Virus record (IMG/VR): IMGVR_UViG_3300030109_004133
Coordinates: 1-51,164 of that record
From: a virus
Length of the DNA stretch: 51,164 nucleotides
Strand: one strand, 5' to 3'
The translations under genes and the position numbers were made by a program. The notes beneath the pieces were generated by a model, which made no database searches, was not told the DNA's origin, and saw only the letters and a list, made by a program, of their open reading frames with translations. Shown one piece after another: positions 15,057 through 46,916 of the stretch (positions are counted from its first letter, which is position 1; every line of letters starts with the position of its first letter).

Positions 15057-18000
15057 ATGCCGGAAATGAAGAATAACTTTCAAAGAGGTCGAATGAACAA
15101 AGACCTTGATGAAAGAGCGGTGCCAAACGGCGAGTACAGAGATGCTTTAAATATACAGGTTTCTACTTCTGATGATTCGGAAGTGGGAACAATGCAGACG
15201 TTGAGAGGTAACATCCTGTTGTCTAATTTAGGTCCAGACCTAACGTGTATAGGTTCTGTTACTGACGAAAAAAACGACAAAATATATTGGATGGTAGCTG
15301 GACCGCAAAAAGACGTAATTGTTGAGTATGATTACAAAACAAATGCTGTTGTTCCGGTTTGCGTTGATCGACATGCTTTTTATGGTAGGCGTGCTTTAAA
15401 TTTTAACACCGATTACTTGATAACTGGGTTAAATGTAATGGATGGTTTTATTTTTTGGACAGATAATAATTCAGAGCCTAAAAAAGTAAATATAAGAAAA
15501 GGTAAAGCTGGATCAACTGGTTTTAACAACCACACTTTTCTTATGGTTAAAGATGTTAGCTCAAACGCTGCACCTAACAGTTTGGTTAACGCTATTGATA
15601 TTAACGGTTCAATTGTGCCTATATCAGAAAAACATTTAACAATTATAAAAAAGGGTCCAGATGCTGCCCCTGTTTTAGAAATGATAGACTCTACGGTTGG
15701 TGATTGGGATGGTGATGGAAACGTTGGTGCTGCAGAGTTACTAGCACCTGTAACAAATACTAGTTCTATAACCTGGTTAGATGGCGATGGTGAATTTGTA
15801 CCAAATATAACAATACAGACATCTTCTGGAACAGATTTTCCACCAAATTCATATCTTAATATATATAAAGATGGAGATAGAGCTATAAAAGTTAGAGTAA
15901 AAATAAACGGCGTTGGTGGACCAATTGGATATTCTGTTAATATACTTTCTGGAAATAAAGATATAGTAAACGAAGATGATCTTGTTGTAGAACTAGAACA
16001 GCAATCAGCTTTGTTTGAGTTTAAGTTTCCTAGATTTGCTTATAGATACAAATACGAAGACGGAGAATACTCTCCATACTCACCTTTCACACAACCAGCA
16101 TTTTTACCAGGTAGTTTTTCTTATTTGCCAAAACAAGGTTATAATCTTGGTATGGTTAATAGAGTAAGACAATTAGCTGTAAAAGACTTTGTTCATACTA
16201 GAAGCATGCCTGAAGATGTTGTCGCTATAGATATACTTTATAAAGAATCAAACTCTCCAAACGTTTATTCTGTTAAAACTATAAAAAGAAGAGGTTACGA
16301 TCCAAACAAGTGGGATGAGTGGAATGGTGTATCAGAGTCTTTAGTTATAGAAAACGGTATTCAACTTGGTGATGGTTGGGCCGGTAGAACAAAGGGTTAT
16401 TTACCAATAACCACAGAAATGATACACGCTACTTTACCTTCTAATCAATTGTTAAGACCTTGGGATAATGTACCAAGAAAAGCTTTAGCACAGGAAATAG
16501 TTGGTAATAGATTAGTTTATGGTAATTATTTACAAAACTACAACTTATCAAATAGCGACACAAATAACGTAAACATAAAAGTTGACTTAAAAGTTCAACT
16601 AAGATCTAAGACTTTAGGAGGTATATTACCAGAAGAAGTGGACGCTGGGCCTAATAGAAAACCTAAAAACTACAGCCCTGCTAAATCTTTAAAATCATTA
16701 AGAACCTATCAATTAGGTGTTGTTTACATTGATCAATACGGTAGAGAAACACCTGTATTTTCAGAAGATAAAAGAGGACAAACAGCAACTGGTTCTGATA
16801 CTTCTGAAGCTTCTATATATGTGTCCAAAGAAAATGCTAACAAAAGAAACTCGTTAATAGTAGAACTAAAAAACGATCCGCCAGACTGGGCAACCCACTT
16901 TAAACTTTTTGTGAAAGAAACCTCGAACGAATACTATAACCTAGCAATGGATCGTTGGTATGAGGCTGAAGATGGTAACATGTGGTTATCATTTCCTTCT
17001 GCAGAAAGAAACAAGGTTGATGAAGAAACATTTTTAATACTTAAAAAAGCTCATGATAGTAGTGAGTTTATAAGCGCTCCTGCTAGATATAAGATTATAG
17101 CTATAGAAAACGAAGCGCCTAGATTTATAAAGCTACAAAACGTTTCACAAGGTGGTATAGTAGATAGCACAACGTCTGGTGTCTCTATTCTAGGTCTATC
17201 TGCTTCTGGATTTCCTTTAGAAGGTGGATTTTTTATATATGTTGATCAGGACGCTTTTGAAGAGGCTGGTTGGAAAGACTCTCTTATAAATCAAGATATA
17301 TCTCAATGTTTTATGAGAGTAAAATCTGCTTCTGGTATAAGTAATTATTATAGATTAAAACAAATAACGTACGATTCCTCTACGGGTAGTTATTACAAAA
17401 TGGAATCAGACAAAGTGTTTGGTCCAGACATGAACCACACTTCTCCAGATGGCACTTTTTTAAATAGAATAACAAACTGTGAGTTACAAGTTATAAAAAG
17501 AATACCAGAAGATAAAGCTGAGTTTGAAGGAAGATTTTTTGTTAAAGTTTTAAAGGACGATGTTCTTATAAAGTCTTTAAACATAACGTCTGGTAGTGGT
17601 CTTGATTACGTGGCTATAGCTAGCATGCAGGTTCAATACATAAACCCTTTAGCAGCTCAAGCCGCTGGAGGTTGGGATGGTTTTGGTCAGAATAAATACC
17701 GAATCTCCATGGATAAAAGACAAGATGATTATTGGTCTAGACCTGATAATAGCATGGCAGAAGGTGATGGTCAAAATTTTTGGAAATACGCTGCTGACGA
17801 TACAGATACAGTTAATGCAAATTCTTTAGCAGCTTCCTCTGGTTGGTTTATTGATGCTGTTGAAGGTTTTAGACCTTACAATGGTGATTGGTATGGTAAA
17901 AACATAGGAATCCGTACAAATGCTAGAGATACTCCAAACACGCCTTGTTGGGCTGGATTTGGTCCTGTAGATGATGACTTCAACGACGGTTTAACTGATA

Positions 18001-21000
18001 GAATACCACACGCTATGGGGCTTAATACTTATGGTACTACTGGTAATAATTATTTAGGCACCAGTGGTGCTCAAAAAGTTAAATCTCCAAATGGTGTTAT
18101 GCAAGACACTTCTGTGGCCCTTGGGCCTGTAGCTAGATCTGTTGGTATAGATCCAAGTAGTGGAATAATAAACTTGTCATACGCTGGTTTAAACGAAGAT
18201 GGCGATGATGGTTCTATACCTAGTGGTAGTTGGGCTGACAATTTAACAACACATTATTTTAACGATGCTGCTAAACACGCTGCTGATGAATTATTTATAG
18301 GTAAACTACTAACACCTGGTTGTATATGGAGGTGGAAAGAAGATCCAGATCAAGTTTTATATACAACAGTTGCACAAACAGGGTTAAGCACCACGTCGAC
18401 ACCTTACACTAGTGCTGAATGGACTAACGAAGCTCAAGACACGGATGGTAATCCAGGTGTTATTCTTTTTAACTATATTAACTTTGCTGACTATGTAATT
18501 ACTAGTCATTATATTAGAGTTAAATATTGTACTAGCTTCCCAGCTAATCTGGCTCCAGGCGCTCCTTATCAAAAAACTGATTACAAGCCAGACTGGGTAA
18601 CAAGAGATATTAACAACCATAATATTAGTTCTTGGTGTTGTGGTGGTTGTGTTGCTTGTGGATCGGGAGGTGCTTGGCTTGTATTAAACACTGCTTGTTC
18701 TTTAACGGGTGCCGCTCTTGGTTGTGGTTGTAGTCACGGTAGTATAAAAGGAGCAAACAGATGGGGTGGGTTTTTTGGAGGATCTAATTACTCTGAACAT
18801 TGGAAATTTCCAAATTTAAATTATGATTGGGATATTTCAAAAAACAAACGTAGAAGATTTAGATTTAAAGCTGAAACTTTAGCCGACCCTACAATTCCTA
18901 TTGGTGGAACTGGTCATAATTACTTACCAACAAATGATCCTACTTTTGCTCCGCATTTTAACGCTTCTGCAACAGCTATATCAGTAAATCCTATAACTGG
19001 TGTTGCTTTTACTGATCCAGCACCTGGTATTAGACCAGACGGAATGCATACTGGCTATACAAACCCTGGTGGTTCTTGGACGTGGAACAACGGCTCTAGT
19101 ACTCAAACAGTAGATACAATACCACAATACAAAAGATGGAGCGATGATTCTACACCTGTTCAAACACCAGAACCTGGTAGTGTTACTTGGGAAATAGTAG
19201 AGCCTTTCACTCCTAGTGATGAAAAGTTTTCAAGTACAAATCCAGCTATTTGGGAAACAGAGCCAAAAGAAGATGTTGGTATGGATATTTATTACGAAGT
19301 GGGACATAAATACCCTATATATTTAAATGACGAAACTATAGAGCAATTTGTAGGTGCTGTCCACGAAGACATATCAAAAAATACATATGTACACTGTTGG
19401 GATGGTGGCGCGCCTATGGGTAGTGGTACTGGAACAATAAATCTATCAACAGGAAGTGGTAGTGACATAAGAGTTTACGCGGCTAGAGGAAAATTTGTTC
19501 AACTAGCTGATTTAAGCGGTAATATTTTAGACGACAACAACGCTACTCACCAAACACCTATTCAAGGTTCTTATTTAATGTTTTATAGGGCTGACGGTAG
19601 TGTCACAGAAGCTCATGTTGGTGGCGGTACGTATAACAACAACGGAACTTGGTACGAGTTAATAGGAAACACATTTAATAACGAGGTTGGTGTTCACAGT
19701 AAAATGATAGAACTACCTTTCTTTAATTGTTATTCATTTGGAAATGGTGTTGAGTCTGACAGAATAAGAGATGACTATAATCAAGTAACAATAGACAATG
19801 GGCCAAAAGCTTCTACAACTTTAGAAGAGCCTTATTTAGAAGATAGAAGAAAAAGTGGATTTATATGGTCTGGCATATATAACTCTAAAAGTGGTGTAAA
19901 CAATTTAAATCAATTCATACAAGCTGAATCAATAACAAAAGACGCAAACCCTGTTTATGGTAGTATACAAAAAATGCATGTTAGAGATAACGATTTGGTT
20001 GCTTTTTGTGAAGATAGAGTCTTGAAAGTTTTAGCCAACAAAGACGCTTTGTTTAACGCTGATGGTAATACAAATTTAGTTGCTACAAATAGAGTTTTAG
20101 GAAACATAAGACCTTTTGTTGGTGATTACGGTATATCTAAAAACCCAGAGTCGTTTGCTTCTGATTCTTATAGGTCTTACTTTTCAGACACTAGTAGAGG
20201 TGCTATAATTAGACTTTCACAAGATGGTTTAACTGCTATATCAAATGTTGGTATGAAAGACTGGTTTGCTGATAACCTACCTTTATACGACAGAATAATA
20301 GGTAGTTTTGATGATAACAAAAACGAGTACAACATAACATTAAAAAAGAAACTTATAGGTTCTAGAGTAGCAAAGAAAACTTTATCTTTCAATGAACCTT
20401 CTAACGGTTGGGTTAGTTTTAAATCTTTTATAAAAGAAAGCGGTGTTAGTTTAAATAATTCTTACTACACGTTTAAAAACGGTGATTTGTACGTTCATCA
20501 TGAAAACGAAACTCATAACAATTTTTATGGGGTTCAATACGAATCAACGGTTGATATTCTATTTAATCAAGCGCCTGGTGTTATGAAGAGTTTTTCTACA
20601 TTAAACTATGAAGGAACACAATCAAGAGTAACTGCCGATGTAGATAATAATCCGGATTACTACGATAACTTCCCTAAATCTGGTTGGTGGGTTGAAGAGT
20701 TGAACTCTGATATTCAACAATTAGGAGTTATGGAGTTTTGGGACAAAGAAGACAAGTGGTTTAGTCAAATAAAAGGTGTGGCAACAGAGTGGCTTAACGA
20801 TGGTACTGCTGGTAACATAGACCCTAGAGAGTTTTCTTACCAAGGTATAGGTAATGCTTATAATATAGAGTGTGAAGACTGCCCTGATGTTGTTAGTTGG
20901 ACTTGTTCTTCATCTGTTGTTGGAGTTGCTAGCGGTTATGGTTGTGTTCAAGTAAATGGACCATCTGGTTACCCAACAGAGCAAGAATGTATAGACGCTG

Positions 21001-23738
21001 GGTGTGGACCACAAGAGTCTTATAATTGTGATCTTGTAGCAAAAGCATGTGTTGACCCCGGTGATGGAAGTGGACAATACTCAACATACTGTGAGTGTGT
21101 TAATGATTTTTGCTGCCCAGAAGCAGAGGCTTACTTTTTTAGTTGTCAAAACCAAACAGTTCCAAGTGTTTTAACTTATGGTTGTATGGACGATGGAACA
21201 ACTAACGATCCTTTTATTATACAAGATAGACCTAACAACTGGTCTGGACCTGCAACAAACTATAATCCAGCAGCAAACGTTCACGATTGCGACTGCGTAT
21301 ATAATTCTGCTTCAACTTGGGACTGTGTTACAGGAAATTGTGTAGAAATATTTAATGGTACTGGTCAGTTTCCAACATTAGCTATTTGCGAACAAAACTG
21401 TGAACCACCTTGTCCTCCACGTCCCTTTGTTGTTCAAACCCCAATAATAACTAATTCTGTTTCTTTACAAAATGGAAACTGTGCTCTTGGTATTTATACT
21501 AATCACGGTCAAGTTACTGTTGGTTTAACAAGTGCTAATGGTAATCCGACAAACTGGTTGGTTAAGTTTACAGACTCTAACAACAATACATTTCACACAT
21601 CGGCTTCGCTACCGGCTTCAGTACCTTATGTTCTTGGTAATTTACTTCCTGGTTCTTATACTTATACAATAGTAGATATTGACACTAACTGTGAATTTAT
21701 ATATAACTTTACAATAAACTGTGAAGATCCACCACCACCAACACCAATTACTTTTGATTGTGCGTATCACCACGGTTCGTACACTTGTGTTGATCCTGGA
21801 AACGGACAAGGTCAATATACTGGTCCAAACGCGTTTAATGATTGTCAAACAGATCCAAACTCACCTTGTAATCCTAATTATCAATATGGTGGATGTACAG
21901 ATCCTTGCGCTTGCAACTATGATCCAAATGCTAGTTTTGATGATGGTTCTTGTATATACGACTGTGACAATAGTAGTTTAATTGATTTTTCAGCAGGTGT
22001 TGGATATCAAAACCAAATAAACGCGGGTATATACTCTGCTACAGGTACAACTGGAATTCCAGAAGCTATGATTGGTCTTACGGGTACTGGTGGAAATACC
22101 ACCTGCCTTGACTGTGGTGGTCCTGGTGTTAATTTAGCAAACCAACCGTATTTTGTAAACAACGAAACAATTATAGAGGCTTTCGTGCGTACTTATGGTA
22201 TAGATGCTGATATGAGAGATTATATTTATAACAGATCGACAAGTTACAATAGTTCTTCTGTAAGAAGATATATGAATTTACGTGTTAGTAATATAGATAT
22301 TAACGGTTGGTATAACTCGCAAAACGTTTTCTTTAAATGGAGAGATTATATTGACAGTGCTGTTGCTACCGGTGTTATATCAAACGTACTAAACGTAATA
22401 GATCCTAACTGTACGGGAAGTCCATGTGTTAATAATCCTCAAAATTTTGATACTGCGACAGGTTATGTTATAAGGTTATCAAAAATAAGAGAAGCTATAA
22501 CAACCGGAATGATGGCTTCAAACAATTGGACTTGCGATGGTACTTCTAGCACTTGGAATCAAAATGGTATAGGTGGTAATAATACTGCTAATTGTGATAG
22601 AACAAACGTTACGGTTTGTGACCCTTGCACTGTACCAGCTTCAAATCCTTGTGGTCCACCAAGCCCAATGAACTATATATGTTATGATGCGGAAATGCCA
22701 ACTGGACAGTGTCAACCAGTAAACTTGCCTGTTGGTGTAAGTTCTAACGGTGTGGTTTACAGCAGTTACAACGACTGCATGAGTAATTGTCAAATACAAA
22801 ATTACAAATGTGATGATAATGTGTGTGTTTCTACAACAGATCCTTTAGGTAGCGCTCCAGGTATTTATCCTACAATACAAGACTGTTACAACGCTGGTTG
22901 CGGTAGAGTTAGCGAAATACAATCTTATGAATGTGTTAACGGAAACTGTGTTTACGACCCAACTGGAGCTGGTCAATATAGTAGTTTAATACAATGTCAG
23001 GCATACTGTGGCGTAAGCAACTTTAACAATTGGGCTTGTGAAGCGGGTGGAACCGCTCAAGCACAGTGTGTACAAACAGCTAGCGCTGTTAACAACATAA
23101 ATGTTTTCAACACACAGCAAGATTGTTTGGATAACTGTAGCACGAGTATAAGCACTGCAGATGTATCTTGGGCTGGTTGTTGCCATCCAGGAGCTATGGA
23201 ATACAGTTATGTTGGCCCTAATGGTTTACCTTGCCACTCAGATACAATGTGTACCTGTAGTTTTGATCCTTTTTGGTGTACGTTACCAACATGTTTCGTT
23301 GGCGGAACAAAAGTAACCATGTTAAACGGTTTAAGTAAAAATATTGAAAATATTGTAACTGGAGATATAGTAAGATCTTACAACGAGCACACAAAAGAAT
23401 TATCAGACGCTGTTGTAATAAAAACACAATCGCAAACATCTGCTAAAACTATTAAGTTTGATTTTGATGGTATTGAGGTACAAAGTACTGTTGACCACCC
23501 TTATTATGTTAGTGGCAAAGGTTGGTCTGTTTACAACCCAGAAGAATCTAACCATGATTTTGCAGTAAATAAGTTAGAGATTGGTGACACGTGTTACGTT
23601 TACAACGATGGTGATACTAAAGAGGTTGAGTTAACTAATCTTGAAGAAATAACAGAAAATGTAACAACGTATATATTTACTCTTGATAGAGACAAAACTT
23701 TCTTCGCTAACAACATTTTAGTTCACAACAAAGCATAA
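15057..23738 (+). CDS. Giant tail (nozzle/stabilisation) protein with Cys repeats and C-terminal Hint domain
   Basis: A 2893-residue protein. The N-terminus (FQRGRMNKDLDERAVPNGEY, then RDALNIQVSTSDDSEVGT) resembles tail nozzle or stabilisation proteins of podovirus-like phages that begin a beta-propeller tail tip. Residues 216-227 (DWDGDGNVGAAE) form a perfect EF-hand-like calcium loop. Roughly 230-1930 is beta-rich, propeller/fibre-like sequence. Residues about 1948-2745 hold at least eight Cys-rich repeats and one GCTDP-type repeat at about 2279. Residues 2746-2893 are a Hint domain: Cys2746 in CFVGGTKV, His2814 in TVDHPYYV and the end FANNILVHNKA. The protein probably forms the distal tail and binds the host. 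The Hint domain predicts self-cleavage or ester formation at Cys2746. The host-like Cys repeats suggest horizontal gain. Confidence 0.82.
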   Translation: MPEMKNNFQRGRMNKDLDERAVPNGEYRDALNIQVSTSDDSEVGTMQTLRGNILLSNLGPDLTCIGSVTDEKNDKIYWMVAGPQKDVIVEYDYKTNAVVPVCVDRHAFYGRRALNFNTDYLITGLNVMDGFIFWTDNNSEPKKVNIRKGKAGSTGFNNHTFLMVKDVSSNAAPNSLVNAIDINGSIVPISEKHLTIIKKGPDAAPVLEMIDSTVGDWDGDGNVGAAELLAPVTNTSSITWLDGDGEFVPNITIQTSSGTDFPPNSYLNIYKDGDRAIKVRVKINGVGGPIGYSVNILSGNKDIVNEDDLVVELEQQSALFEFKFPRFAYRYKYEDGEYSPYSPFTQPAFLPGSFSYLPKQGYNLGMVNRVRQLAVKDFVHTRSMPEDVVAIDILYKESNSPNVYSVKTIKRRGYDPNKWDEWNGVSESLVIENGIQLGDGWAGRTKGYLPITTEMIHATLPSNQLLRPWDNVPRKALAQEIVGNRLVYGNYLQNYNLSNSDTNNVNIKVDLKVQLRSKTLGGILPEEVDAGPNRKPKNYSPAKSLKSLRTYQLGVVYIDQYGRETPVFSEDKRGQTATGSDTSEASIYVSKENANKRNSLIVELKNDPPDWATHFKLFVKETSNEYYNLAMDRWYEAEDGNMWLSFPSAERNKVDEETFLILKKAHDSSEFISAPARYKIIAIENEAPRFIKLQNVSQGGIVDSTTSGVSILGLSASGFPLEGGFFIYVDQDAFEEAGWKDSLINQDISQCFMRVKSASGISNYYRLKQITYDSSTGSYYKMESDKVFGPDMNHTSPDGTFLNRITNCELQVIKRIPEDKAEFEGRFFVKVLKDDVLIKSLNITSGSGLDYVAIASMQVQYINPLAAQAAGGWDGFGQNKYRISMDKRQDDYWSRPDNSMAEGDGQNFWKYAADDTDTVNANSLAASSGWFIDAVEGFRPYNGDWYGKNIGIRTNARDTPNTPCWAGFGPVDDDFNDGLTDRIPHAMGLNTYGTTGNNYLGTSGAQKVKSPNGVMQDTSVALGPVARSVGIDPSSGIINLSYAGLNEDGDDGSIPSGSWADNLTTHYFNDAAKHAADELFIGKLLTPGCIWRWKEDPDQVLYTTVAQTGLSTTSTPYTSAEWTNEAQDTDGNPGVILFNYINFADYVITSHYIRVKYCTSFPANLAPGAPYQKTDYKPDWVTRDINNHNISSWCCGGCVACGSGGAWLVLNTACSLTGAALGCGCSHGSIKGANRWGGFFGGSNYSEHWKFPNLNYDWDISKNKRRRFRFKAETLADPTIPIGGTGHNYLPTNDPTFAPHFNASATAISVNPITGVAFTDPAPGIRPDGMHTGYTNPGGSWTWNNGSSTQTVDTIPQYKRWSDDSTPVQTPEPGSVTWEIVEPFTPSDEKFSSTNPAIWETEPKEDVGMDIYYEVGHKYPIYLNDETIEQFVGAVHEDISKNTYVHCWDGGAPMGSGTGTINLSTGSGSDIRVYAARGKFVQLADLSGNILDDNNATHQTPIQGSYLMFYRADGSVTEAHVGGGTYNNNGTWYELIGNTFNNEVGVHSKMIELPFFNCYSFGNGVESDRIRDDYNQVTIDNGPKASTTLEEPYLEDRRKSGFIWSGIYNSKSGVNNLNQFIQAESITKDANPVYGSIQKMHVRDNDLVAFCEDRVLKVLANKDALFNADGNTNLVATNRVLGNIRPFVGDYGISKNPESFASDSYRSYFSDTSRGAIIRLSQDGLTAISNVGMKDWFADNLPLYDRIIGSFDDNKNEYNITLKKKLIGSRVAKKTLSFNEPSNGWVSFKSFIKESGVSLNNSYYTFKNGDLYVHHENETHNNFYGVQYESTVDILFNQAPGVMKSFSTLNYEGTQSRVTADVDNNPDYYDNFPKSGWWVEELNSDIQQLGVMEFWDKEDKWFSQIKGVATEWLNDGTAGNIDPREFSYQGIGNAYNIECEDCPDVVSWTCSSSVVGVASGYGCVQVNGPSGYPTEQECIDAGCGPQESYNCDLVAKACVDPGDGSGQYSTYCECVNDFCCPEAEAYFFSCQNQTVPSVLTYGCMDDGTTNDPFIIQDRPNNWSGPATNYNPAANVHDCDCVYNSASTWDCVTGNCVEIFNGTGQFPTLAICEQNCEPPCPPRPFVVQTPIITNSVSLQNGNCALGIYTNHGQVTVGLTSANGNPTNWLVKFTDSNNNTFHTSASLPASVPYVLGNLLPGSYTYTIVDIDTNCEFIYNFTINCEDPPPPTPITFDCAYHHGSYTCVDPGNGQGQYTGPNAFNDCQTDPNSPCNPNYQYGGCTDPCACNYDPNASFDDGSCIYDCDNSSLIDFSAGVGYQNQINAGIYSATGTTGIPEAMIGLTGTGGNTTCLDCGGPGVNLANQPYFVNNETIIEAFVRTYGIDADMRDYIYNRSTSYNSSSVRRYMNLRVSNIDINGWYNSQNVFFKWRDYIDSAVATGVISNVLNVIDPNCTGSPCVNNPQNFDTATGYVIRLSKIREAITTGMMASNNWTCDGTSSTWNQNGIGGNNTANCDRTNVTVCDPCTVPASNPCGPPSPMNYICYDAEMPTGQCQPVNLPVGVSSNGVVYSSYNDCMSNCQIQNYKCDDNVCVSTTDPLGSAPGIYPTIQDCYNAGCGRVSEIQSYECVNGNCVYDPTGAGQYSSLIQCQAYCGVSNFNNWACEAGGTAQAQCVQTASAVNNINVFNTQQDCLDNCSTSISTADVSWAGCCHPGAMEYSYVGPNGLPCHSDTMCTCSFDPFWCTLPTCFVGGTKVTMLNGLSKNIENIVTGDIVRSYNEHTKELSDAVVIKTQSQTSAKTIKFDFDGIEVQSTVDHPYYVSGKGWSVYNPEESNHDFAVNKLEIGDTCYVYNDGDTKEVELTNLEEITENVTTYIFTLDRDKTFFANNILVHNKA
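20898..23288 (+). repeat. Cysteine-rich repeat region in the giant tail protein
   Basis: This stretch encodes at least eight copies of a module of the form [YWF]-x-C, a second Cys, a Gly-rich turn with [YF]-x-T or similar, then C-x3-C. Examples: YECVNGNCVYDPTGAGQYSS, WDCVTGNCVEIFNGTGQFPT and YKCDDNVCVSTTDP. One GCTDP...NYDPNA...DDGSC module lies at about 21891-21956, the same type found in the exported protein at 40597. Such modules are typical of secreted marine Bacteroidota proteins. They probably form disulphide-stabilised small domains. Copies are diverged, so they are old or selected rather than recent duplications. Confidence 0.8.
23292..23735 (+). other. Hint (hedgehog/intein) self-processing domain
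   Basis: This encodes the last 148 residues of the giant tail protein. Block A: Cys2746 followed by FVGGTKVTMLNGLSKNIE and TGDIVRSYNE. Block B: TVDHPYYV, with the His that activates the N-terminal scissile bond. Later blocks: LEIGDTCYVY, then TYIFTLDRDKTFFANNILV and HNKA. The His-Asn pair (2890-2891) is the C-terminal splice-side motif of inteins, but only Lys-Ala follows, so there is no C-extein to join. N-terminal cleavage, thioester-mediated linkage or release of the domain are the possible outcomes. Confidence 0.85.
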
Positions 23739-26836: not shown

Positions 26837-27481
26837 ATGGCAAGAAATAAAAAAAATAGTCCTTTAAAACTTATTGGTGGAGCTATCACAGCTTTAGGAG
26901 CTTACGATTGGGGAGGTAAAAGAAAAAAAGCAATAGCTGAATCTCAAGATGAATACGACAAGCAAAAAAGAGCTTTCATGAATCTAGATACCAGCAACTT
27001 ATATGGTGATGTTTCTAACCCTTACGCTAATATGGAAAACACAATGGAAGACTTAACAGTTAACCAACAACAAGCACAATTCGAAGCTCAACAAGGTGCA
27101 CAACAAAGATCTAATATAATGCAAAACATGCAAGGAGCTGCTGGTAGTAGTGGTATTGCTGGTTTAGCACAAGCTATGGCTAATCAAGGACAGTTAGCAA
27201 CACAAAGAGCGTCTGCGTCTATTGGACAACAAGAATCTGCTAATCAAAAAGCAGCAGCTCAACAAGCTGGTCAATTGCAAAAAATGGAAAGACAAGGCGA
27301 TTGGAAGGCAGACATGACTAGGCGTGCCGGTGCTGAGCAGTCAAGGACTTTAGAAAAGCAAAAAACTAATACTCTTTTTACTATGGCTACAAACAGATTG
27401 AACAGTGCTAAATCAGCACATCAACAAGCTCAAGACCAAATGTGGAGCGGAATTGGAAGTATGTTTAATCCGTTGAGCTAG
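26837..27481 (+). CDS. Putative internal virion (ejection) protein, small
   Basis: A 214-residue protein. The N-terminus MARNKKNSPLKLIGGAITAL contains NSPLK, a variant of the SPxK motif, followed by a short hydrophobic helix with Gly residues. Residues about 65-200 are Gln/Ala-rich helices (QQAQFEAQQGAQQRSNIMQN, SANQKAAAQQAGQLQKMERQ), the composition of small ejection proteins such as the T7 gp14 group. Such proteins leave the virion with the DNA and form a channel across the envelope. It is followed by two larger proteins that would complete a three-protein ejection set. The assignment is by composition and position. Confidence 0.6.
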   Translation: MARNKKNSPLKLIGGAITALGAYDWGGKRKKAIAESQDEYDKQKRAFMNLDTSNLYGDVSNPYANMENTMEDLTVNQQQAQFEAQQGAQQRSNIMQNMQGAAGSSGIAGLAQAMANQGQLATQRASASIGQQESANQKAAAQQAGQLQKMERQGDWKADMTRRAGAEQSRTLEKQKTNTLFTMATNRLNSAKSAHQQAQDQMWSGIGSMFNPLS

Positions 27482-38201: not shown

Positions 38202-39305
38202 ATGAAAAAAATAATAATATTAATAACAGTAATATTTTTGGCAGCTTGTTCTGTTCCAAAAAAATGCTGTTCTCAAAATATAGACTTACAAGAGATAATT
38301 AAAAAAGAACTAAAGTTTTCTACTTTTTACGCCGCTGTAAATGGTGGAACGTCTTTATCTGATGTTGATGTTTTTTCTGTTAATAACGGGTTGTCAACAC
38401 AAACGGTTTCAACGCCTTATGATTATAATCTTACTATTGGTTTAAGAAAAATAGCTAGGTTTGGGTATGAGAATAAAGCACAAACGTTTTATGACGGCAC
38501 AGAGTCTAATTATACTGACGCAGCAACTGTTGGTAAAGTTCAGGGTTTTGAGTATTTATTTGAAGTTAATTATAAGAGACAAGAGGGTGTAGATTACATG
38601 GATCAACACCACTTTATTAGATATAGCTCTGATGATGATTGTGAAGGTCCTTATTGTATAGATCATTTTGCTTTTAAAATAGAATATTTAGAAGATGGTT
38701 TTGCAGATGTAAAGTACTTTGAAGCATCGGAAAGATACAGGTATAAAAAAAGCAAGGATTTAGCTTTTAGTATTGGTGCGGCACATAGATTAGCAGAACC
38801 TTATGGGTATAATCCTTTAGACGAGTGGATGCTTTCAAATGGTAGTTTACACTATACTTATCTAGCTTTACAAGAAGGTTACAATGTGGACGTCGCTAAT
38901 AGCCAATACTTTGATCCTAACGGTGTTTTAGTCGCAACTAGTCCTGAAGTATGGGAAGCAGTTGTAATACCTCAGGTTTTATCTGATTATACTAACAAAA
39001 AAAGAAACGAGCTAAAAAATATTATACAACACTCTATAGTTGTTGGTTTTGACTACTACAAATACACAAAGAAAAATTGGTTACATGTTTGGGGTAATTT
39101 AATGCCTTGGCATTATAACGATGGTAGTGAGTTTAGTTATCACAATTTTATAGACGAAGACCAGTGGTATGACTATTCAGGTGGAATAATTTTTGGAATA
39201 AAACAAAGCAAGCACTTAGGTTATTTCGTAGAGGGTAAATACAATAAGTACTGGAACAGAGAGTGGTACGATTTTAAACTAGGATTAAATTACACAATAT
39301 TTTAA
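38202..39305 (+). CDS. Phage-encoded envelope protein, lipoprotein signal and barrel-like C-terminus
   Basis: A 367-residue protein. The N-terminus MKKIIILITVIFLAACSVPK is a signal peptide with lipobox LAAC (Cys16 modified), followed by two more Cys. The body has alternating aromatic/polar strands (NLTIGLRKIARFGYENKA, AFSIGAAHRLAEPYGYNP), and the end YFVEGKYNKYWNREWYDFKL, then NYTIF, closes with a terminal Phe, as outer-membrane beta-barrels do. A SDDDCEGPYC loop holds a possible disulphide. It would be placed in the host outer membrane or periplasm during infection. Possible roles are exclusion of other phages, receptor masking or help with release; none is shown. It opens a cluster of envelope-directed genes. 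Confidence 0.7.
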   Translation: MKKIIILITVIFLAACSVPKKCCSQNIDLQEIIKKELKFSTFYAAVNGGTSLSDVDVFSVNNGLSTQTVSTPYDYNLTIGLRKIARFGYENKAQTFYDGTESNYTDAATVGKVQGFEYLFEVNYKRQEGVDYMDQHHFIRYSSDDDCEGPYCIDHFAFKIEYLEDGFADVKYFEASERYRYKKSKDLAFSIGAAHRLAEPYGYNPLDEWMLSNGSLHYTYLALQEGYNVDVANSQYFDPNGVLVATSPEVWEAVVIPQVLSDYTNKKRNELKNIIQHSIVVGFDYYKYTKKNWLHVWGNLMPWHYNDGSEFSYHNFIDEDQWYDYSGGIIFGIKQSKHLGYFVEGKYNKYWNREWYDFKLGLNYTIF

Positions 39306-39306
39306 A

Positions 39307-39588
39307 ATGGCAAAAGAATTAAATGAAGACACGGCTTTTAAGCTAAGTATAAAAACTATGATGGCAATAGGTTTTGCTATAATAACATTAGCTGGTATGT
39401 GGTTTACTTTGCAAGCTGAAATAGCAGAGGCAAAAACACTCCCACTAGCACCAGACCCTGAGGTTACTCGCATGGAGTTTGATATGAAAGATCAAATGAT
39501 ACGTAACACTATCATGGACACGCAAAAAGATGTAGAAGAGATGAAAGAAACCTTAGAGCGAATAGAAGATAAATTATATAATAGATAA
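39307..39588 (+). CDS. Single-TM coiled-coil protein (XhlA-like lysis accessory candidate)
   Basis: A 93-residue membrane protein. A short charged N-terminus (MAKELNEDTAFKLSIKT) precedes one hydrophobic helix at about 18-35 (MMAIGFAIITLAGMWFTL). A Pro-rich break (TLPLAPDPEVTRMEF) leads to a heptad coiled coil up to the end (KDVEEMKETLERIEDKLYNR). The layout resembles XhlA-type or spanin-like phage lysis accessory proteins, though those often have the coiled coil before the TM helix, so topology is uncertain. It starts 1 base after the upstream stop and lies beside two other envelope-directed genes. A role in membrane or lysis control is plausible. Confidence 0.65.
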   Translation: MAKELNEDTAFKLSIKTMMAIGFAIITLAGMWFTLQAEIAEAKTLPLAPDPEVTRMEFDMKDQMIRNTIMDTQKDVEEMKETLERIEDKLYNR

Positions 39589-39592
39589 TTAA

Positions 39593-39955
39593 ATGGAACA
39601 ACAAGATATAGCTTGGCCACAATACATTCTTTACATATTAGTAATGTTGTTTGTGTTTTTTGCAAGCACCTCTTTTGGGCAAATAACAGCAGTTCATTTT
39701 AACGCTGGTTGGAACTCTGACAACGGTGTTGAATGGTTTATGGGTTTGAAAGATTGTAAAACAAAAAGTAACGTCGATATAACTAAAGACGCTAAAGCTG
39801 CTAAAAAATATAAAATAGCTGTTGTACCTACTATTATAATATTTAAAGATGGAGAAGAAGTTGCTAGGTTTCAAGCTGATCTTAGTTTTAAGATGGTAGC
39901 AACAAGAGAAGAAGTACAAGATGAAATAGACGATATAATAATGAGCGATTTTTAA
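39593..39955 (+). CDS. Membrane-anchored thioredoxin-fold protein without CxxC
   Basis: A 120-residue protein. Residues about 11-29 (YILYILVMLFVFFASTSFG) form a signal anchor or signal peptide. The rest follows a thioredoxin fold: strand TAVHFNAGWNSDNGVEWF, where a WCxxC motif would be expected but no cysteine pair occurs; a middle helix (DAKAAKKYKIA); cis-Pro motif VVPTIIIFKDGEEVARFQ; and a C-terminal helix (ATREEVQDEIDDIIM). Only one Cys is present (KDCKTK), away from the active-site position. It is therefore probably a redox-inactive binding protein in the periplasm or envelope. It starts 4 bases after the coiled-coil membrane protein and may act with it. Confidence 0.7.
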   Translation: MEQQDIAWPQYILYILVMLFVFFASTSFGQITAVHFNAGWNSDNGVEWFMGLKDCKTKSNVDITKDAKAAKKYKIAVVPTIIIFKDGEEVARFQADLSFKMVATREEVQDEIDDIIMSDF

Positions 39956-39956
39956 T

Positions 39957-40586
39957 ATGGGATTTAAAATGAAAGGTTTTGGTGGGTTTGTTAACTCACC
40001 GGTAAAAAATAAAAAGCTTGAAAAAGTAGTAGAAGAACTTAAAGGTGCAGTAAAAGCACATGGTAGGCAAGCCAGTGTTGTTGAAGATCATCTTGATAAA
40101 ATGGAAGAGTCTCCTGCAAAAAAACGTGGGTTATGGGATAATATACATGCTAAACGTAGGCGTGGAGAAAAAATGAGGAAACCTGGCGAAAAAGGCGCTC
40201 CTACAGAAAAAGCATTAAAAGAGTCTCAATCACCAGCTAAAAAATCTTGTGACTGTTGGGAGGGGCATAGTAGAGTTCCTGGTACAAAACCTTGTGCGCC
40301 TGGTAGTTGTAAAAAAGACTCACCAGCTAAAGCTAGTAACGAGCCTAGAAAAACAACAAAAGGTAAAGGTCGTAATTTTAGAACCGTAGAAGAAGGTGCT
40401 GGTATGACAGCTAAAGGTGTTGCTAGTTATAAAGCTAAAAACCCTGGCAGTAAATTAAAAACAGCTGTAACTGGTAAGGTAAAACCAGGTAGTAAAGCTG
40501 CTAAACGTAGAAAGTCATTTTGCGCTAGATCAAAAGGTTGGACCGGGGAAAGAGGTAAAGCCGCAAGAGCAAGATGGAAATGTTAA
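39957..40586 (+). CDS. Basic MGFKMKGF-tag protein with SPAK repeats and DUF6321-like end
   Basis: A 209-residue, very basic protein. It starts MGFKMKGFGGFVNSPVKNKK, a tag shared with genes at 1068, 1379 and 46401. Further SPxK motifs occur: ESPAKK (about 52), QSPAKK (about 92), DSPAKA (about 122). A Cys cluster (KSCDCWEGH, KPCAPGSCKK) could bind metal. The C-terminal part (GAGMTAKGVASYKAKNPGSK, then KPGSKAAKRRKSFCARSKGW) resembles the family I know as DUF6321, found in marine phages, and ends RGKAARARWKC. Strong positive charge and SPxK motifs suggest DNA binding, perhaps as a packaged protein. It lies 1 base after the thioredoxin-fold gene. Confidence 0.7.
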   Translation: MGFKMKGFGGFVNSPVKNKKLEKVVEELKGAVKAHGRQASVVEDHLDKMEESPAKKRGLWDNIHAKRRRGEKMRKPGEKGAPTEKALKESQSPAKKSCDCWEGHSRVPGTKPCAPGSCKKDSPAKASNEPRKTTKGKGRNFRTVEEGAGMTAKGVASYKAKNPGSKLKTAVTGKVKPGSKAAKRRKSFCARSKGWTGERGKAARARWKC

Positions 40587-40596
40587 AAAAAATAAA

Positions 40597-42840
40597 ATGA
40601 AAAGAATACTATTACTATTATTATTACCTTTATTAACTTTCGCGCAAAAAGAAGTTGTTGTTATTATTAAAACAGACTCGTATCCACAAGAGACTAAATG
40701 GACTCTGTATGCTAATGCTTATCAGGGCGACACTATAGATTATGTTTCTTATGGTCATTATGATTCAGCTAACGTTATGAATTATGATACTTTATATTTA
40801 GCAGATAGTATAACAAATATTTCGTGGGTTATATCTGATGATTATGGAGATGGTATTACTAACGGTGAGTATTATGTAACTATATGTGGTGATACCGTTG
40901 TTGACTATCCTGTTAGTACTTTTACAACGGGTTTAATACACAATAGAACTGTTCCACAGTGTATGCCAAACCCACCACCACCACCATTAGGCCCTTGTGT
41001 GCCCACGATGGTAAACATAAACTTAGATCAATATCAAGGTGAAACAACTTGGGATATTAAAGACACATTAGGAAATATATTATACTCTGGAGGACCATAT
41101 TCTAACGCGCCAGATTATCAACCGCAGTTTATACCTATCTGCCTGCCAACTGGTCCTTTAACATTTACTATATATGATGCTTATGGAGATGGATTAGCTG
41201 GTAGCTTGTGGGGAGGTCAAGACGGATCTTACTATTTATTTCAATGTGGCGATACCTTAGTTTACGGAACAGAGGCTAACTTTGGGACAGACTCCACGCA
41301 CTCGTTTGTTTCTGATACTTGTGTGCCTCCACCACCAGTGCCCGGCTGTACGGACGAAGATTACACGGAATACAACCCTTTGGCTACGGTAGATGATTCG
41401 TCGTGTGTTACACTAAAAGTTTGGGGATGTATAGACTCAACTATGTTTAACTACGACTCTGCTGCCAACACAATGGACTACGTAGACAGCTGCGATTACA
41501 CTCTTATACTACATGATCTTGTAGGTAATGGCTGGGTTGGTAGTAGATTAGAGATATATCAAGAAGACAAAGATACTAGTGTGTTTTTTATGACACAACC
41601 TAGTTTAAACCAGCAATTTTCTATTAACCTACACGCTCCAGACGAAGTTCAAGCTAAGTTTTTTGTGTCACAACAGGCTCAGCACACGGCTTTAGAATGT
41701 GGTTTTACATTGGTAAATCCGTTTGGCGACACAGTTATAAGTGTTGTACCACCTTTTATAGTTCCGTTTCAAACTTATACCGGTGTAACGTATTGTGGTA
41801 ATACTTGTGTTGAGATAGTTGAAGGATGTATGGAGGTTTTGGCTTGGAATTATGATTCTTTAGCTAACACTAGTTTACCTTGTTATTATAATCCAGGTTG
41901 TTTAAGTCCGGCTTATTTAGAGTATCATAATGACACTACAAATGGATATTATACAGATATAAACATACAAGATAGTTGTAATACTTTAGCTATATTTGGT
42001 TGTACAGACCTTTTATCTTTTAACTACGATCCACTTGCAAACGTAGATAACGGCGGTTGTGTTCCGGTTATACTTGGTTGTATGGAGACTTTTGCTTTTA
42101 ACTACAATCCTAACGCTAACACGCCCGACACATGTATACAGTTCTCGTATGGTTGTACTGATCCAACTATGTTTAATTACGATTCGTTAGCTAATACTGA
42201 TGACGGTAGTTGTATTGAGTTTGTGTATGGTTGCATGGACTCAACAATGTTTAATTTTAACCCTTTAGCAAATGCAAATAGTAATCTTGTTCCTTGTATA
42301 CCTTACATCTATGGTTGTACTGACCCTAGCATGCTTAACTATAACTCACAAGCCAACACAGAAGATTTTAGTTGCATTGCTTATATTTATGGCTGTATGG
42401 ATAATACTGCTATTAACTATGATTCACTGGCTAATACTGACAATGGTTCGTGTATTGAGGCTATTGTCGGATGTATGGATCCAAATGCGTACAACTATAA
42501 CCCGCTAGCAAATGTAATTTTAGGACACGATTCACTTGGGTGTTTATATGCAGCAAGTTGGTGTGTAAACGGATCTGGTAATCCTTATTTTTTAAATGAC
42601 GAGTGTTACGCTTGGGTAATTAGCGTAGATGATTACTGTTGTGAAAACGAGTGGGATAATATATGTCAAGCGACTTACGATTATTGTGAAGGAACTTGGG
42701 TTGGACCATTACCTAGGCGTATACCTAAAATAAAAGCGGTTACAGATTTACTTGGCAGGCCGTCTAAAATAATAAAAAATCAATTATTGTTCTTTATATA
42801 CGAAGATGGAACAATAGAGAAAAAACTAATAAAAGAATAA
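40597..42840 (+). CDS. Exported host-like repeat protein with T9SS-type C-terminal signal
   Basis: A 747-residue protein. MKRILLLLLLPLLTFAQKEV is a clear signal peptide, cleaved near TFA-Q. Residues about 20-240 hold two beta domains with SDDYGDGITNGEYYV and FTIYDAYGDGLAGSLWGG, typical of flavobacterial secreted proteins; a third similar block lies near 305. Residues 250-649 carry about ten Cys modules of the type GCTDPTMFNYDSLANTDDGS. Residues 707-747 (RRIPKIKAVTDLLGRPSKII, then LLFFIYEDGTIEKKLIKE) resemble the end of a T9SS type A sorting domain. The predicted product is displayed on the host surface through the host type IX system. Its place amid phage structural genes is odd; a virion adhesin is the alternative. 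Confidence 0.78.
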   Translation: MKRILLLLLLPLLTFAQKEVVVIIKTDSYPQETKWTLYANAYQGDTIDYVSYGHYDSANVMNYDTLYLADSITNISWVISDDYGDGITNGEYYVTICGDTVVDYPVSTFTTGLIHNRTVPQCMPNPPPPPLGPCVPTMVNINLDQYQGETTWDIKDTLGNILYSGGPYSNAPDYQPQFIPICLPTGPLTFTIYDAYGDGLAGSLWGGQDGSYYLFQCGDTLVYGTEANFGTDSTHSFVSDTCVPPPPVPGCTDEDYTEYNPLATVDDSSCVTLKVWGCIDSTMFNYDSAANTMDYVDSCDYTLILHDLVGNGWVGSRLEIYQEDKDTSVFFMTQPSLNQQFSINLHAPDEVQAKFFVSQQAQHTALECGFTLVNPFGDTVISVVPPFIVPFQTYTGVTYCGNTCVEIVEGCMEVLAWNYDSLANTSLPCYYNPGCLSPAYLEYHNDTTNGYYTDINIQDSCNTLAIFGCTDLLSFNYDPLANVDNGGCVPVILGCMETFAFNYNPNANTPDTCIQFSYGCTDPTMFNYDSLANTDDGSCIEFVYGCMDSTMFNFNPLANANSNLVPCIPYIYGCTDPSMLNYNSQANTEDFSCIAYIYGCMDNTAINYDSLANTDNGSCIEAIVGCMDPNAYNYNPLANVILGHDSLGCLYAASWCVNGSGNPYFLNDECYAWVISVDDYCCENEWDNICQATYDYCEGTWVGPLPRRIPKIKAVTDLLGRPSKIIKNQLLFFIYEDGTIEKKLIKE
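41344..42543 (+). repeat. GC[TM]D...FNYD.LAN...GSC cysteine module array
   Basis: About ten copies of a module of roughly 24-40 residues: Gly-Cys-[Thr/Met/Ile]-[Asp/Glu], a short helix, [FY]NY[DN]xxAN, an acidic turn and a closing Cys. Good examples are GCTDPTMFNYDSLANTDDGS, GCMDNTAINYDSLANTDNGS and GCTDPSMLNYNSQANTEDFS. Two Cys per module suggest one disulphide each. Neighbouring copies are more alike than distant ones, which suggests tandem expansion. The same module occurs once in the giant tail protein at about 21891. Confidence 0.85.
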
Positions 42841-46400: not shown

Positions 46401-46916
46401 ATGTCTTATAAAATGAAAGGTTTTAGTGGCTTTGGCGATGGCACTAGAAAAGCAAAAAGAATGGAAAAAAGGTTGGGTAAAATTGCTACAAAAGCATATG
46501 AAAACCAAAAAAAAGAGTTTGAAAAATCTGGCATGGACAGTTATGTGAAGTTTATGGCTAAAGGTGATCATTCTAAAAAAACAAAAAGATTACATAAAAG
46601 GTTTGATAGAATAGAAACCAAGCTAGATGAAATATATGATAAAAAAGAATCACCAAACAAAGCTATGCAAGAAGATGCAAAAGCTGTAACAAAACAAGGT
46701 ATAAAAGAAACTGCTAAACCTGTGATTAAAAAAGGATTGTTAAAAATGGGTGCTAAAGCAGGAGCTAGAATGTTAGGTCCAATTGGAGCTGTTTTAACTG
46801 GTTATGAAGTGGCTAAACTCGCGGGTAGAGCTTCTAAAGAAGTCGTGCCAGGTTTAAAGAAAAGAGCAAAAAGAGAGAAAGGGGGAGAAAGTATGTATAC
46901 ATCTCCAAAATTATGA
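46401..46916 (+). CDS. Basic MSYKMKGF-tag protein with SPxK and glycine-helix region
   Basis: A 171-residue, very basic protein: MSYKMKGFSGFGDGTRKAKR is the same N-terminal tag seen at 1068, 1379 and 39957. A charged coiled coil follows (KTKRLHKRFDRIETKLDEIY), then KESPNKAMQED. Residues about 110-145 form a Gly/Ala-rich hydrophobic helix (KMGAKAGARMLGPIGAVLTG, YEVAKLAGRAS). The C-terminus is basic, ending MYTSPKL. The mixture of basic and membrane-active-looking parts suggests a DNA- or membrane-contacting virion protein. It starts 1 base after the endolysin. Its stop overlaps the start of the small ORF at 46913. Confidence 0.65.
   Translation: MSYKMKGFSGFGDGTRKAKRMEKRLGKIATKAYENQKKEFEKSGMDSYVKFMAKGDHSKKTKRLHKRFDRIETKLDEIYDKKESPNKAMQEDAKAVTKQGIKETAKPVIKKGLLKMGAKAGARMLGPIGAVLTGYEVAKLAGRASKEVVPGLKKRAKREKGGESMYTSPKL

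Follow-up and report, generated by a model that had tools for sequence, protein, structure and literature searches.

A single large gene in the DNA studied here raises the question of why a phage should encode a protein built like those that bacteria export, and where in the infected cell that protein would be sent. The window, meaning the whole stretch of DNA analysed, is one entire virus record of 51,164 bases. We conclude that the gene probably specifies a surface or extracellular cargo protein that is made by the phage, sorted via the type IX secretion system (T9SS) of the host, and encoded together with an envelope-remodelling cassette.

A candidate exported protein among phage structural genes

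The original prediction had placed this gene in a structural block of a phage and not on a contaminating host contig, and both points stand: the gene is surrounded by phage genes, with terminase, portal and virion proteins encoded upstream, an endolysin downstream, and a muzzle protein also present in the window. The order of the terminase, portal and virion genes is as in Elemovirus, and the phage, judged from its muzzle protein sequence and head gene order, is a crAss-like podovirus.

15057..23738, + strand: crAss-type muzzle protein, 2,893 aa (PF25731, 37.4 bits; PF25729, 31.8 bits; cut-offs 27)

Three further features of these phages were recorded. The muzzle protein (15057-23738) has a Hint/AXH domain at its C-terminus, and its last residues, ILVHNKA, follow the pattern with which intein-like self-processing domains end. 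Basic small proteins encoded at 366-686, 1379-1789, 26837-27481, 39957-40586 and 46401-46916 have common N-terminal pieces resembling KMKGFSGFGNSPAKK or SPAK, which may represent a shared motif for targeting or processing. Finally, the terminase reading frame at loci L020, L055 and L070 (in G488, G494 and G497) holds internal TAG codons, and in G488 one TAA; the TAG codons suggest TAG recoding, which occurs in other crAss-like phages.

The gene in question and the parts of its product, hereafter the cargo protein, are as follows.

40597..42840, + strand: coding sequence of the cargo protein, 747 aa, putative T9SS-type cargo (ORF translation; relatives in 117 viral loci)
40597..40644, + strand: signal peptide, residues 1-16, predicted cleavage between A16 and Q17 (Q-rule; hydropathy, M1/Q17 conservation)
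40645..40950, + strand: beta domain 1, residues 17-118, with DDYGDG (AlphaFold model, local pLDDT ~85-90)
40999..41313, + strand: beta domain 2, residues 135-239, with DAYGDG (AlphaFold model)
41344..41493, + strand: GC-type Cys modules 1-2, residues 250-299 (sequence motif, shuffle test)
41488..41787, + strand: beta domain 3, residues 298-397, with GNGW (AlphaFold model)
41824..42543, + strand: GC-type Cys modules 3-11, residues 410-649 (motif; model confidence low here)
42562..42687, + strand: Cys domain, residues 656-697 (DDYCCENEWDNIC), the last common part before either tail type (homolog comparison)
42715..42837, + strand: short C-terminal sorting tail, residues 707-747 (A1 profile; host use; exchange for type A tails in homologs)

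The signal peptide, the beta domains with YDAYGDG, the approximately ten GCTDP-type Cys modules and the C-terminal tail that had been proposed from the sequence were all recovered. The N-terminus, MKRILLLLLLPLLTFA followed after the predicted cleavage site by QKEV, is a Sec-type signal with a hydropathy peak of 2.96 over 11 residues, and both M1 and Q17 are unchanged across 33/33 homologs. Under the Q-rule of Bacteroidota a Gln is exposed after signal cleavage (PMC5837995), and Q-rule proteins have been noted as encoded by phages of Porphyromonas gingivalis (PMC10367356); the invariant Q17 of the cargo fits this rule. A Shine-Dalgarno scan found no enrichment. The motif YGDG occurs at residues 83 and 196, GNGW at 310, and three beta domains are modelled. 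The cargo contains 11 GC...C modules; the pattern GC[TMILV][DES] is present 11 times where shuffled sequences give 0.14 (maximum 3), which rules out the modules as a product of chance. The tail, KAVTDLLGRPSKIIKNQLLFFIYEDGTIEKKLIKE, ends at the stop codon and is the sole such tail within the window. It scores 72 bits against a model built from homologs with the window tail among them, and its ~41 residues are predicted to form three strands (pLDDT 72-79, in an AlphaFold model of low overall confidence). The entire protein had no meaningful match in Pfam, NCBIfam, PHROGs or PDB sequences, and the matches that Foldseek returned for its model, all to multi-domain beta proteins at low TM, are uninterpretable.

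The Cys repeats had been described as host-like. That is true of them, and host proteins do pair GC modules with either kind of tail discussed below (a short tail at L211, a type A-like tail at L212), but as evidence the likeness is weak: the same modules occur in a gene of Synechococcus phage S-CAM3 (NC_031906, 36382-37932) annotated as a virion structural protein, and are therefore not diagnostic of host cargo. They are found, too, in large signal-less proteins of related phages.

A short tail and its exchange for type A sorting domains

According to the original prediction, the host T9SS exports this protein, and the lack of any profile match of the tail to T9SS domains would speak against export by that route. 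No such match exists in Pfam or NCBIfam. The cargo matched none of their profiles even at E = 10, a search that covers TIGR04183 and PF18962, nor did it match those for the type B C-terminal domain (CTD; TIGR04131 and PF13585). The ChiA-type (type C) CTD is a C-terminal region of ~100 residues (PMC10202324) as against the ~40 of this tail, and the cargo was without any NCBIfam match. Because the absence of a profile match was refuting on the prediction's own terms, independent evidence was sought; export through the host T9SS gains good support from tail exchange and from host use of the tail, and none from the profile route that had been proposed.

The type A CTD is a seven-strand Ig-like fold of ~70-80 residues. 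Cargo bearing it (TIGR04183 or PF18962) consists of multi-domain surface proteins and, like the cargo protein, pairs a Sec signal with a sorting tail at the C-terminus; phage homologs of the window cargo carry a type A tail in the corresponding position. Unlike such cargo, the window protein has a tail of ~40 residues, not 70-80, that matches no T9SS model. The cargo itself has a Sec signal at its N-terminus and the tail at its extreme C-terminus, a layout shared by host proteins. Profile-profile comparison between short tails and those of type A gave nothing significant, also when 75 host and 43 phage tails were used, and homology is therefore not claimed; the best local pieces of the alignment were DxLGR, which resembles motif B, and the final K-rich part, which resembles motif E. 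A short secretion signal is nonetheless plausible, since the last 22 residues of the type A CTD of HBP35, which comprise motifs D and E, are able to secrete GFP; the last 13 residues of that domain are needed for secretion (both reviewed in PMC10202324).

The cargo was also compared with its phage relatives. A viral scan identified 117 stretches encoding relatives, of which 80 were retained. Among 78 homologs with a classifiable end, 60 end in the short tail, whereas the other 18 have a longer one with a YPNP motif and type A layout, and both kinds start after the same Cys domain. All of the long-tailed homologs scanned (8/8) lie above the TIGR04183 cut-off and 7/8 pass PF18962, the eighth scoring 26.7 against a cut-off of 27; the short-tailed homologs scanned gave no match. 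On a tree of the tail-less bodies the tail type switches 10 times, at least seven of these switches being forced by starred branches, and the sister pairs L055/L079 and L015/L021 differ in tail type. Such repeated mutual replacement of two tails on one body most likely means that they do the same job, and the presence in relatives of a standard T9SS tail at the same place indicates that the phage probably displays or releases the cargo at the surface of the infected cell.

Host genomes, with which comparison had been proposed, point the same way: in the likely host clade, many exported proteins end in this tail. Scanning genomes for the short tail yielded 91 confirmed stretches, of which 79 were examined as host loci; judged by record titles, almost all come from marine Flavobacteriales or other Bacteroidota. 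In host proteins read on the + strand the tail motif lies 9-14 residues from the stop, and a simple rule assigns signal-like N-termini to 56 short-tailed host proteins. Their domains are unrelated (PHB esterase, arylsulfotransferase, LRR, PKD, Kelch, GH16, CAP and others), and no library family among the matches listed models the tail. One host family carries it in 52/52 genomes, at 3-51 copies per genome; it occurs in 3/297 genomes of a phylum-wide draw and in 69/198 of an order-wide draw. In the latter, SprA is present in 66/69 tail-positive and 96/129 tail-negative genomes (Fisher p = 0.00016), an association that is supportive and not decisive because small genomes without both contribute. 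The 12 short-tail genomes tested hold 33-134 TIGR04183 tails each, so the two signals coexist. Evidence for tail exchange among host orthologs, sought with the PHB esterase, is weak: the one case is a distant ortholog (L208, at 31% identity) whose tail is type A-like. Marine Flavobacteriales are likely hosts of the phage.

A four-gene cassette around the cargo gene

The original prediction missed a four-gene membrane and export cassette, of which the cargo gene is the fourth member.

38202..39305, + strand: cassette gene 1, predicted beta-barrel of the outer membrane, N-terminus like that of a signal or lipoprotein (12-strand model, pLDDT 68)
39307..39588, + strand: cassette gene 2, 93 aa, one TM stretch and a coiled-coil-like C-terminal part (alignment; topology by inspection)
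39593..39955, + strand: cassette gene 3, exported thioredoxin-fold protein, window copy without CxxC (PF00085, 26.3 bits, cut-off 23.5; alignment)
39957..40586, + strand: basic DUF6321 protein, between cassette genes 3 and 4 (PF19846, 43 bits)

Across 81 cargo loci, many of them incomplete, the neighbours included the barrel in 67, the TM/coiled-coil protein in 72 and the thioredoxin-like protein in 72; the DUF6321 protein was less constant (29/81), and fibre-region genes occurred in at most 36 of the 81. To remove selection bias, a second scan was anchored on the barrel. The cargo gene was present in 37/37 of the barrel-anchored loci with at least 6 kb downstream, the genes stood in the order barrel, TM/coiled-coil, thioredoxin, cargo 49 times and in a permuted order three times, and every complete cargo protein ended in one of the two tails; at L288 only a signal-less GC-module protein is present. 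The same terminase family was detected in 20/25 cassette records tested, at E-values from ~1e-51 to 1e-207, a range indicating that the cassette is common to diverged members of one phage lineage. None of 50,697 phage records matched the four cassette proteins. A host origin of the cassette was rejected, the barrel being absent from 51/52 host-family genomes and its sole match lying on a phage contig in a metagenome-assembled genome (MAG). That contig (L210; C32 of G003), binned into a Flavobacteriales MAG, carries ribonucleotide reductase, QueC-like and amidase genes, and in it the cassette is rearranged and the cargo has a type A tail.

The thioredoxin-fold protein (39593-39955) retains FNA.WN..N, KIA..PTIIIFKDGEE and a C-terminal MSDF strongly conserved in all copies; it is probably inactive. 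At L015, L025, L036, L069 and L266 the cargo signal is like that of the adjoining thioredoxin-like protein (MKKD...YIILM.LVF), and from these sequences signal peptides look as if swapped inside the cassette. Since the cargo is encoded with a barrel, a coiled-coil membrane protein and a thioredoxin-fold protein, the four probably form one envelope-remodelling module in infection.

PorP/SprF is a 14-strand FadL-type barrel. An addition to sorting by the host T9SS, possible and on balance rather unlikely, is that the cassette barrel serves in the same manner as a phage shuttle or surface anchor for the cargo; the linkage of barrel and cargo in 37/37 loci recalls the type B cargo genes of Flavobacterium johnsoniae, which are often linked to PorP/SprF shuttles of their own (PMC12618676, PMC9143113), and in both systems a surface cargo gene adjoins an outer-membrane barrel gene. 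The window, however, lacks a type B CTD, its barrel matches neither Pfam nor the PorP/SprF profile and is predicted to have about 12 strands and not 14, and short-tailed host proteins manage without it. Foldseek likewise gave no support for identity with PorV/PorP, listing generic barrels with FadL only at rank 46 and PorV/PorP absent among the 50 matches listed; the best viral structural match was A0A516LKJ4, at 22% identity.

Alternative destinations and the meaning of the proposed surface sorting

A distinctly unlikely alternative holds that the tail is a T9SS-independent anchor or sorting signal of marine Flavobacteriales, its exchange reflecting a common envelope destination only. The two tails have no significant sequence relation, and the many type A tails in short-tail genomes leave room for different roles, but the repeated exchange at one junction, the presence of SprA in 66/69 tail-positive genomes, the absence on inspection of a membrane helix, lipobox or other known anchor from the tail, and the likeness of DxLGR and the terminal K-rich part to motifs B and E all argue against it. 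More improbable still is that the cassette belongs to the lysis apparatus, with a TM/coiled-coil protein laid out like a spanin or holin and with barrel and cargo disrupting the outer membrane: a small protein of that kind is present and an endolysin gene lies at most a few kb away in 32/81 loci, but that distance varies, three cassette proteins lack any lysis-family match, and lysis would hardly seem to call for a multi-domain cargo of this size that ends in a host sorting tail. Least probable of all is that the cargo is a spike, fibre or decoration of the virion, with a tail for folding or attachment and no working signal, as its place in the late structural region beside fibre-like genes and the GC modules of a virion-annotated cyanophage gene and of signal-less phage proteins might suggest, for it has a signal with invariant Q17, shares its tail with host enzymes, has relatives ending in TIGR04183 domains, and travels with other exported proteins as fibre-region genes do not.

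If the cargo is instead sorted by the host T9SS, as we prefer, Sec would export it to the periplasm, the tail would serve the SprA translocon as a short alternative CTD, in which DxLGR resembles motif B and LFYIYxDGTVEKK resembles motifs D/E, and the protein would reach the cell surface or be released. Counted against this are a tail about half the usual length, its mere three predicted strands, and the non-significant profile-profile comparison. The balance is even as to whether the ~40-residue tail constitutes a further class of T9SS signal, borne by dozens of proteins per genome in a marine Flavobacteriales clade, together with a phage cassette dedicated to rebuilding the surface, in which tails are swapped between classes, perhaps to suit the host. 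We suggest tentatively that the likeliest purpose could be to alter the surface of the infected cell, for example by excluding further phages or by stopping progeny from binding spent cells. The original prediction had offered, as conjectures, a block on superinfection, masking of receptors, cell aggregation or altered adhesion; the present data do not discriminate among these.

Phage-encoded T9SS cargo is already published. For Cryophage, export of such cargo by the host T9SS has been proposed, in that case for enzymes and a PA14 protein that bear type A domains (PMC7468147); the window phage differs in that the tail is new, the body is another one and the gene belongs to a fixed cassette of four. 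Gut BACON phages similarly encode T9SS sorting-domain proteins near the head genes of Bacteroidota phages, these having BACON bodies and recognised T9SS domains, and the accessible text of that report describes no such cassette (PMC6949934). In the literature and profile libraries searched we found neither the short tail nor the cassette described, and no account of tails switching between signal classes.

A secretion signal of ~40 residues would, if true, be a minimal T9SS tag, and many exported proteins of marine bacteria would then be unannotated. Natural exchange of tails on a constant body separates signal from cargo, which opens the manner in which the T9SS reads different signals to direct testing. 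The cassette, for its part, suggests that a phage group has conserved surface remodelling via host secretion as a trait, as opposed to acquiring it occasionally.
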